Virus record (IMG/VR): IMGVR_UViG_3300019890_000013
Span: 1 to 37,480 of that record
DNA from: a virus
DNA length: 37,480 nucleotides
Reading direction: 5' to 3' (one strand)
Positions 28,528 to 34,092 of the stretch are shown here, piece after piece. Numbering within the stretch: the stretch's first letter is position 1; every line of letters begins with the position of its first letter. The notes below the pieces were generated by a model that did not search any database, was not told the DNA's origin, and was given only the letters and a program-made list of their open reading frames with translations. The position numbers were made by a program, and so were the translations under genes.

Positions 28528-28833
28528 TTAATATCCATAACTTTCCCAATGTGTTTCTGATTGAAAAATGAAAGAATCAATCGCCCTTCTTAATTCCCAT
28601 GGAGAAATTCCACTCCAATAACAACAATCTTTATAGGTATAAAACAAACAAGTATTATCATCTTCTTTTAGTGGAACGATAGTATTTATTGATGATAATT
28701 TAAGTAAAAATACTTCATCTCTAACTGTATTTTGTATTACTCTTTGTCCGGCAATAAAAGCACCTTTAATCCATACAATAGGTTGTTTAACTTCTTTTTC
28801 TTCATCTACTTTGATTTGCTTCTTCTTAGACAT
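28528..28833 (-). CDS. Hypothetical protein, 101 aa
   Basis: The product opens MSKKKQIKVDEEKEVKQPIV and has a beta-rich middle (AGQRVIQNTVRDEVFLLKLS) and three cysteines (one in TCLFYT, two in KDCCYW). Its ATG is 10 bp downstream of the initiator stop, after AAAGGAAAT. I see no known domain. It is probably co-expressed with the initiator. Confidence 0.6.
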   Translation of the reverse strand: MSKKKQIKVDEEKEVKQPIVWIKGAFIAGQRVIQNTVRDEVFLLKLSSINTIVPLKEDDNTCLFYTYKDCCYWSGISPWELRRAIDSFIFQSETHWESYGY

Positions 28834-28842
28834 ATATTTCCT

Positions 28843-29646
28843 TTAATTTAAAAAACAGCCAGCTTTCATAGGTTGGCCTGATCTTTGACTTTCACGTTTA
28901 GCTGGTAACTCAGTTAATAAAAACTTTTTGAACCGCTTATCAAGGTCATCAGTAATCTTGTAAGGCTTCATTATTTTATTAATAAAACTTCTAATTAAAT
29001 AAACGCCTGTCTTTCCAATCTTGTTACCTATCTGATCCGCTAACTTTTGGTTCTCAGGATTGGGATAAAATTTAAAATCCAGCTCTGGCTGTTTGCTTGT
29101 AATGGTAGTTGTATGTCCTTTCGGTGTTTGCAATTTCTCCGTATCTAATTGATAATTATTATTATTTTCTTGTTTTTCAGATGAAATTAGGTATTCTTTT
29201 GAATACCTAGTAGGTATTCTTTTAGATACCTTTCTAGGATTATTAGGTATTCTTTTAGATACCTTTTTTGGTTCCCAAAATATCCCGAAACCAGAAATTG
29301 TGGATAAGTTTTCGCGTCGCTTCTGAGTATAATTGATTAAAAAAGATGCTGGCTTGTAAAGATTCTTTCGTTTATCTTTTGCGTTCTGATCAATGTCTAT
29401 CAATCCCATCTCAGTTGCTTTTTTGCATAATATTTTTACAGCATGAATTTTAATATCTAATTCATCCGCCAGCGTTTCTTGGCTAACCCAGGTATAAGGA
29501 TCACTTCCAATGCGGCAAGCTAAAGTAAACAAAAACCCACGCATAGCAGTCGTAATGTTTACCTTCTTTCGTTCGCCAGTTTTTTTGTTAATGCTGAATA
29601 AATTGTTTTCTCGGAGAAATAAACCTAAATCTAAAAGCATACTCAT
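28843..29646 (-). CDS. Replication initiator with winged-helix domain
   Basis: The ATG at 29646 has AAAGGAATTCC as RBS; in-frame starts further up (29661, 29682, TTG 29709) are possible and would add up to 21 residues. The N-terminal half has a winged-helix pattern (WVSQETLADELDIKIHAVKI then LCKKATEMGLI) as in phage and plasmid initiators. A linker (residues about 120-190) is low-complexity and is encoded by the iteron repeats. The C-terminal part (YPNPENQKLADQIGNKIGKT) is helical. By analogy with lambda O and P22 gp18, it would bind the iterons within its own gene and recruit the host replisome. Confidence 0.7.
   Translation of the reverse strand: MSMLLDLGLFLRENNLFSINKKTGERKKVNITTAMRGFLFTLACRIGSDPYTWVSQETLADELDIKIHAVKILCKKATEMGLIDIDQNAKDKRKNLYKPASFLINYTQKRRENLSTISGFGIFWEPKKVSKRIPNNPRKVSKRIPTRYSKEYLISSEKQENNNNYQLDTEKLQTPKGHTTTITSKQPELDFKFYPNPENQKLADQIGNKIGKTGVYLIRSFINKIMKPYKITDDLDKRFKKFLLTELPAKRESQRSGQPMKAGCFLN
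29157..29263. repeat. Iteron cluster and AT-rich tract: candidate replication origin
   Basis: Three 18-bp near-palindromes lie inside the initiator gene: GGTATTCTTTTGAATACC (29190-29207), GGTATTCTTTTAGATACC (29213-29230) and the same again (29246-29263). Starts are 23 and 33 bp apart, near two and three helical turns. An almost pure A/T tract (29157-29180) flanks one side. This is the layout of lambda ori (iterons in gene O next to an AT-rich unwinding region). Confidence 0.75.
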
Positions 29647-29709
29647 TGGAATTCCTTTCATTTGGGGGTTGACCTGATCCATGGGCAACGTATAATCGTA
29701 GGTGCGCAA

Positions 29710-29822
29710 GGGTTCAGGAGAACCTATTTTTGAATCTGTGCGCTCTGTTTCAACCAGGGCGCATGTCTTTTAAACCTTCCCTATATTACCACCACCATTA
29801 AGTTTCGCTAGTCACCACAATG
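29710..29822. promoter_or_regulatory. Structured leader upstream of initiator gene
   Basis: No gene is evident here. The stretch contains GGTTC-AGGA-GAACC followed by TATTTTT (plus-strand terminator-like, about 29709-29730) and a larger GC-rich hairpin TGCGC / GCGCA (about 29738-29763). Both lie in the 5' leader of the initiator transcript, so control of initiator synthesis by RNA structure is possible. Confidence 0.4.
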
Positions 29823-29900: not shown

Positions 29901-30023
29901 TTAATCCAAACTCGTTATCCAACCACCGCAAAAAAGTAGCGTACATATCCCAAGTATTGGGCTGATAGAAAACAACCCGATAACAATTAATCCCATAAAA
30001 ACCCATCCAAAACCTACAGCCAT
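29901..30023 (-). CDS. Small membrane peptide, 40 aa
   Basis: ATG 30023 follows AGAGGTGATAAAA, a strong site. The product (MAVGFGWVFMGLIVIGLFSI, then SPILGICTLLFCGGWITSLD) has one or two membrane passes. It would be the first gene of the leftward early transcript, at the divergence point with the rightward genes. Function is unknown; superinfection exclusion or cell-envelope effects are possible for peptides of this type. Confidence 0.55.
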   Translation of the reverse strand: MAVGFGWVFMGLIVIGLFSISPILGICTLLFCGGWITSLD

Positions 30024-30109
30024 TTTTATCACCTCTCTATTGATATATTCATGCTAATTTGTTAATATCGCGGTACACGTTACCACAATTATAACAAAGA
30101 GAGCAACCC

Positions 30110-33562: not shown

Positions 33563-33928
33563 ATGAAGTTAAAAGATGTAATCGAGCTTGTTAATTTATT
33601 ACAAGACCATCCTGTAATGGGATCTTTGAAAACAAAAGAAGATGGAAGATACGTAATAGCTAGGACTTACACTGCGGGTGTTTTTGCGGGCGAATTACAA
33701 TCGCGTAATGGCAGAGAAGTTGTATTTCATAATGCCAGAAGATTGTGGAAATGGTCTGGCGCTGCTTCATTATCTCAATTATGCATGGAAGGCGTAAAAG
33801 ATCCTGATAACTGCATGTTTCCATGTGAGGTTGACAGAGTTGAGTTATTAGAAGTTGTAGAGATTTTGGATGTTACTGACAAAGCTAAAAAAATTATTAA
33901 AGGTATAAAAATATGGGAAAACAAATAA
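33563..33928 (+). CDS. DUF6948-like protein, 121 aa
   Basis: The centre reads VIARTYTAGVFAGELQSRNG followed by REVVFHNARRLWKWSGAASL and SQLCMEGVKDPDNC. The pattern RTYSAGV-x2-G-L-x-SR-x-G-KEV, then NARR(I/L)W-x-W-GAASL is what I know as DUF6948, found in phages and mobile elements with no known function. The C-terminus has I/V strands ending KIIKGIKIW. It overlaps by 16 bp the gene for the Gly-alternating peptide, so the two are probably coupled. Confidence 0.75.
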   Translation: MKLKDVIELVNLLQDHPVMGSLKTKEDGRYVIARTYTAGVFAGELQSRNGREVVFHNARRLWKWSGAASLSQLCMEGVKDPDNCMFPCEVDRVELLEVVEILDVTDKAKKIIKGIKIWENK

Positions 33929-34092
33929 TAGCTGACGGTTCTGGTTCTGGTTCTGGTGACGGTGACGGTTCTGGTTACGGTTCTGGTTACGGTGACGGTT
34001 ACGGTGACGGTTACGGTTACGGTGACGGTTACGGTTACGGTGACGGTTACGGTTACGGTTCCGGTTACGGTTACGGTGAAGGTTACGGTTAA
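33913..34092 (+). CDS. Alternating-glycine repeat peptide (GX)n, 59 aa
   Basis: ATG 33913 lies inside the end of the DUF6948-like gene with AGGT eight bases before it. After MGKQIIAD the rest alternates strictly Gly-X for about 25 units, where X is Tyr (12), Asp (6), Ser (6) or Glu (1). The DNA is a tandem hexamer array (GGTTAC, GGTGAC, GGTTCT), yet no unit breaks frame and the array ends in TAA. Such (GY/GD/GS)n sequences resemble low-complexity, phase-separating or structural glycine proteins. Its function is unknown. Confidence 0.7.
   Translation: MGKQIIADGSGSGSGDGDGSGYGSGYGDGYGDGYGYGDGYGYGDGYGYGSGYGYGEGYG

Follow-up and report, generated by a model that had tools for sequence, protein, structure and literature searches.

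Three near-palindromic repeats lie within the coding sequence of a predicted replication initiator of an uncultured phage, in more than one reading frame. Do they mark a replication origin of the phage lambda O type, with selection acting on the DNA rather than on the encoded peptide, as the initial annotation proposed, or are they better explained by gene regulation, RNA folding or the history of the repeats? To address this, we analysed the locus in the window, the whole 37,480-base stretch of the virus record, in which genes for an Sf6-like small terminase, portal, major head, lysozyme and a Sak4-like protein were recognised.

The initiator gene and its iterons

The gene that holds the repeats and its two predicted domains are as follows.

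28843-29646 (minus strand): O-like replication initiator gene, 267 amino acids from its ATG, assigned by O-like family matches and homologues
29272-29646 (minus strand): predicted N-terminal winged-helix DNA-binding domain (AlphaFold2 pLDDT 75.8; nearest solved folds, MarR-type repressors)
28846-29076 (minus strand): C-terminal domain, common to relative L103, whose N-domain and iterons differ

Matches of the initiator to PHROG O-like families are weak (E 7.5e-5 to 1.4e-3; phrog_345 at 7.5e-5, phrog_270 at 1.2e-4, and also phrog_678 and phrog_391), and tblastn against 50,697 phage records returned no match. The O-like assignment is made firmer by homology (E about 1e-24) to a protein of L098 that is itself firmly placed in phrog_678 ('replication initiation O-like', E 1.7e-32). 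The reading frame stays open as far as TTG 29709; as relatives keep the MSMLLDLG start and not the TTG-29709 extension, ATG 29646 is the most likely start. A full-length AlphaFold model was unusable (pLDDT 39), and the N-domain was modelled alone instead, giving a predicted winged helix over residues 1-112 with block pLDDT mostly 70-91. MarR-type repressors bind palindromes as dimers.

No lambda P-like loader or helicase was recognised among the window ORFs scanned, and we therefore file the locus as an O-type in-gene origin and not as a lambda O-P module; a helicase loader may be present unrecognised in the genome or be supplied by the host. Directly after the initiator gene lies a 101-residue ORF (28528-28833, minus strand) with a homologue in L096, a similar ORF in L094 and no family match, which is a candidate for the missing loader function or may be unrelated.

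29189-29208 (plus strand): iteron copy 1, AGGTATTCTTTTGAATACCT, read R-Y-S-K-E-Y-L
29212-29231 (plus strand): iteron copy 2, AGGTATTCTTTTAGATACCT, read K-V-S-K-R-I-P
29245-29264 (plus strand): iteron copy 3, AGGTATTCTTTTAGATACCT, read K-V-S-K-R-I-P
29141-29190 (no strand assigned): A/T-rich tract adjoining the array, candidate DNA unwinding element by nearest-neighbour stability

The three near-palindromes described in the initial annotation were recovered as exact 20-mers in these places within the initiator coding sequence, and its account of copies 33 and 23 bp apart in two frames holds: the minus strand reads KVSKRIP twice and RYSKEYL once, within the product ...KKVSKRIPNNPRKVSKRIPTRYSKEYLISS... 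across the array. Start spacings of 23 and 33 bp put copies 2 and 3 in one frame and copy 1 in another. Copy 1 is a perfect palindrome (AGGTATTC-TTTT-GAATACCT, with 7 of 7 arm pairs of the 18-mer), and copies 2 and 3 are imperfect (5 of 7). No further copy with up to 3 mismatches was found in the 37,480 bases; shuffles give 0.04 matches expected by chance, and none of them contained three copies. Tandem Repeats Finder called copies 1 and 2 as a 23-bp array. Elsewhere in the window, Tandem Repeats Finder marks an ORF at 33913-34092 (plus strand) made of a GGTTAC/30-bp tandem repeat that encodes a Gly-Ser-Asp-Tyr repeat peptide (TRF score 197). An exact iteron occurs in just one other viral contig, L002, which comes from an unrelated phage; its sole copy lies by an integrase-like gene and was dismissed as chance.

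The A/T tract reported beside the array is real and adjoins copy 1. It comes within 0.04 kcal/mol of the gene's least stable 50-mer, at about the top 0.2% of the window, and lies on the C-domain side of the array, the side that such a tract also takes in lambda, P22 and phi80. The gene's least stable 50 bp falls at the array end towards the C-domain in L096, L094, L103, lambda, P22 and phi80; in L098 and L108 it lies away from the array. A GC-skew signal had also been suggested as a check, and the cumulative minimum, near 30 kb, does agree with an origin, but it coincides with a switch in gene direction and so says little.

Concerted change of the iterons and divergence of the predicted recognition helix among relatives

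Relatives were reached via the terminase, a two-row alignment, whole-record searches and the upstream DNA pattern; viral and genome contigs scanned with the window initiator as the sole query gave no match, nor did a genome scan with the initiator alignment. Initiator homologues were thereby identified in L083/L096 (71% identical), L094/L097 (59%), L098 (E about 1e-24) and L108 (E about 1e-28), the last two being related to the window initiator by the N-domain. When the initiators are aligned, as the initial annotation proposed, the 71% and 59% homologues keep three palindromes at the same offsets while both letters and peptides change. Iteron starts at gene nucleotides 384, 417 and 440, in frames 2, 2 and 1, are identical in the window, L096 and L094, and the gene-sense consensus sequences are GGTATYY-AAAA-GAATACC, GGTAGAC-AAAY-GTATACC and GGTGGCY-AAAA-GRCCACC, respectively. 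The individual copies, also in gene sense, are GGTATCTAAAAGAATACC twice and GGTATTCAAAAGAATACC in the window; GGTAGACAAATGTATACC, GGTAGACAAACGTATACC and GGTGTACAAACGTATACG in L096; and GGTGGCTAAAAGGCCACC with GGTGGCCAAAAGACCACC twice in L094.

Iterons are more alike within a genome (14-18 of 18 bases) than orthologous copies are between genomes (11-13 of 18). From one genome to another each copy has 5-7 changes, of which 2 to 5 are shared, in both position and new base, across frames (permutation p 0.04 to 5e-5), and between the window and L094 four of the five changes in one copy recur identically in the copy of the other frame (p about 1e-4), the p values serving as a guide because positions were taken as independent and descent was not corrected for. 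In the relatives KVSKRIP becomes KVDK(C/R)IP or KVAKRPP, and RYSKEYL becomes RCTNVYV or RWPKDHL. Differences between the window and L096 fall 7/5/7 on first, second and third codon positions in the linker versus 4/1/27 in the first 60 codons, a loss in the linker of the third-position bias of nucleotide differences. Concerted change in two frames, together with these codon-position differences, means that the peptide does not explain the iteron pattern. The earlier argument for selection on the DNA, from the likeness of copies within one genome, is insufficient as it was made; the concerted change between genomes is what supports it. By comparison of the sequences, we take this change to be selection on, or homogenisation of, the DNA, to which neutral gene conversion among copies could add.

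More distant members extend the pattern. L098 has three copies of TAGGAAC-NATN-GTTCC, spaced 32/33 and in two frames, and in L108 the 24-mer AAAAATACAGGTCAAAATTATCCT recurs unchanged in all three copies, spaced 32/24 and likewise in two frames. Every one of the five members of the N-domain family therefore has three iterons spread over two frames, with letters that differ from member to member. In L103 the C-domain is shared (E 5e-7 to 1e-11), whereas the N-domain is of another kind and the iteron, GTCTCGACTTAGCGAGAG, occurs three times (spacing 22/23, two frames). Because the iterons lie at the joint between the domains, a crossover there would swap the reader and its sites together.

Palindromic linker repeats were also seen in further O-like genes of terminase relatives, all in phase in L085 and L087 and in more than one frame in L086, L091 and L092. 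Calls in L089 and L093 are tentative, as among 197 control ORFs the iteron caller reported three or more copies in 26 and palindromy of at least 12 in 5; in L088 it called none.

29407-29448 (minus strand): predicted recognition helix, residues 67-80, a divergence hot spot between relatives

The protein diverges where it would be expected to read these sites. Residues 61-90 are 40-47% identical among the window, L096 and L094, against 77-93% in the flanking stretches, and the densest 20-residue block of differences starts at residue 63 and covers the predicted helix (shuffle p 0.004). This hot spot fits an initiator and sites that change together, with the helix probably matched to its own iterons in each genome.

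A predicted divergent promoter and two hairpins upstream

29669-29696 (plus strand): promoter-like block TTGACC-N16-TATAAT, 11 of 12 consensus, pointing away from the initiator
29711-29724 (plus strand): hairpin 1 of the predicted divergent RNA (GGTTC-AGGA-GAACC), with hairpins of other letters there in 6 relatives
29738-29764 (plus strand): hairpin 2 of the predicted divergent RNA, terminator-like in the window genome
Whole element, promoter block and two hairpins: window 29669-29772 (plus strand); L096 3870-3976 (minus strand); L094 3870-3977 (minus strand); L103 2149-2260 (plus strand); also in L105, L108 and L109

The block, at the same 11/12 match to consensus, occupies the same place in the window, L096 and L094, and recurs with a conserved spacer upstream of the initiator-position gene in L103, L105, L108 and L109; in three of these four the N-domain is of another type. 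With 3 mismatches allowed, it is absent from 45 other records (44 terminase relatives and L098). The conserved spacer region (29668-29689) contains an imperfect inverted repeat, GTTGACC-N8-GGGCAAC, in single copy in the window, which is a possible operator. On the other strand, TGGTAATATAGGGAAGG at 29777-29793 (minus), similar in L105 and L108, looks like the extended -10 of an initiator-directed promoter, and further upstream of the initiator lies a small membrane-protein-like ORF (29901-30032, minus strand; MAVGFGWVFMGLIVIGLF...), the start region of which is similar in L083/L096.

The predicted divergent RNA is approximately 70 nt long (about 29703-29772). Across seven loci, with the arms of hairpin 2 aligned by hand as MAFFT misaligned both hairpins, 67 of 70 pair cells are kept, against a mean of 43 and a maximum of 55 in shuffles, and compensatory changes are numerous. 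Hairpin 2 pairs better as divergent RNA than as initiator-sense RNA (67 versus 61 pair cells) owing to G-U pairs. In the terminator scan, a T-rich tail after hairpin 2 was accepted in the window only, and an Rfam search with the upstream element gave no real match.

Such a layout, a divergent promoter at the initiator start and a short RNA ending in a hairpin, is that of lambda oop, here as a prediction. The lambda oop and phi80 M3 RNAs likewise have a promoter at the initiator start, pointing away, and run for about 70-80 nt to a GC-rich hairpin; promoter and terminator are similarly arranged in lambda (oop), with an annotated homologue in phi80. The gene to which oop is antisense in lambda is cII (PMC3985674). 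The window gave no recognisable cII, and its RNA, unlike lambda oop, is predicted to be antisense to the leader of the initiator itself; since it would pair with that leader and no cII was recognised, we describe the element as oop-like in layout and do not file it as oop. A tentative and rather doubtful proposal is that in this small clade N-domain and iterons are exchanged as one cassette, L103 having just the C-domain in common, while the fixed upstream promoter and RNA control whichever initiator is present, in antisense, as in plasmid-like copy control.

The locus as a probable origin and its known counterparts

Taken together, the O-like homology, the conserved array, the concerted change and the side on which the AT-rich tract lies make the lambda-O-like origin put forward by the initial annotation the best reading, and we consider it highly probable that the phage replicates from this locus, as an origin of the lambda O type. 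We propose that dimers of the O-like initiator would bind the three near-palindromic 18-bp iterons through the N-terminal winged helix, the iterons being placed in the stretch of the gene that would encode a flexible linker between the DNA-binding and C-terminal domains. Bound roughly two and three helical turns apart, the dimers would form an O-some and melt the adjoining A/T-rich tract (29141-29190), and the initiator C-terminal domain would recruit the replicative helicase, so that binding, melting, helicase recruitment and origin activity are all predicted for this stretch. With both in one gene, recognition helix and sites would be inherited and changed together, and selection would bear more on the sites as DNA than on the peptide they encode.

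A repressor would also be in keeping with the palindromic sites and a MarR-like winged helix, and a promoter-like block with a conserved spacer does stand upstream, such that the repeats might instead be operators for autoregulation of the initiator, or sites of another phage regulator. That they lie about 380-460 bp inside the gene and not at a promoter, have no copy elsewhere in the window, and are accompanied by an unstable adjoining tract in a layout that suits an origin, as in lambda, P22 and phi80, makes this very unlikely. History alone, through recent tandem duplication or homogenisation by neutral gene conversion, could leave likeness across frames without selection, and the close similarity of copies within a genome, including the identical 24-bp copies of L108, is what it would leave; yet palindromy survives repeated changes of letters, the 33/23 spacing is fixed in three genomes although the DNA between repeats has escaped homogenisation, and where the sites diverge so does the predicted recognition helix, which renders it extremely improbable as the explanation. 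Hairpins in the initiator mRNA are barely credible: compared with shuffles, every region has the better fold (z -3 to -6), but any palindrome folds, and we rejected this account as the members are without a common fold and most copies tolerate mismatches in the inner part of the arms.

We judge the lambda-type origin in this uncultured phage to be real and well supported, new as a member and known as a design. It extends that design to uncultured phages whose initiator matched no known phage records. The five initiator/iteron pairs form a natural series with differing sites, and in the three closest pairs the predicted recognition helix is the part of the initiator that differs most; such a series could help in working out how O proteins recognise their sites. 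The divergent promoter and two-hairpin element upstream of exchangeable initiators may be newer than the origin itself and would, were it expressed, represent a new regulated element laid out like lambda oop.

In lambda, O dimers assemble on inverted-repeat iterons, the adjacent A+T-rich 40 bp is opened and the helicase is delivered by P (PMC5043065, PMC7466680). The window shares with the lambda origin near-palindromic 18-19-bp iterons that lie within the initiator gene and occupy more than one frame, an A-rich tract on the same side (gene-sense strand), the order N-domain, linker, C-domain, and a divergent promoter with a short-RNA element at the gene start; it differs in having three iterons and not four, other letters, 33/23 spacing and no recognisable P gene. 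Frame-crossing, which had been singled out as unusual, is ordinary for this type of origin, as the four lambda iterons (39034, 39054, 39078 and 39101; spacing 20/24/23) and the four of P22 gene 18 each occupy three frames; iteron positions are presumably set by spacing along the helix and not by reading frame. In the P22 gene 18 and phi80 gene 15 origins the iterons occupy the same position as in the window, within a gene of the same kind, and have letters of their own, phi80 sites being spaced 20/21/21. Unlike the window, both have four iterons and enterobacterial hosts, and P22 encodes its own DnaB-like helicase. P22 iterons keep the 20/24/23 spacing of lambda with other letters, which is the pattern seen between the window and its relatives.
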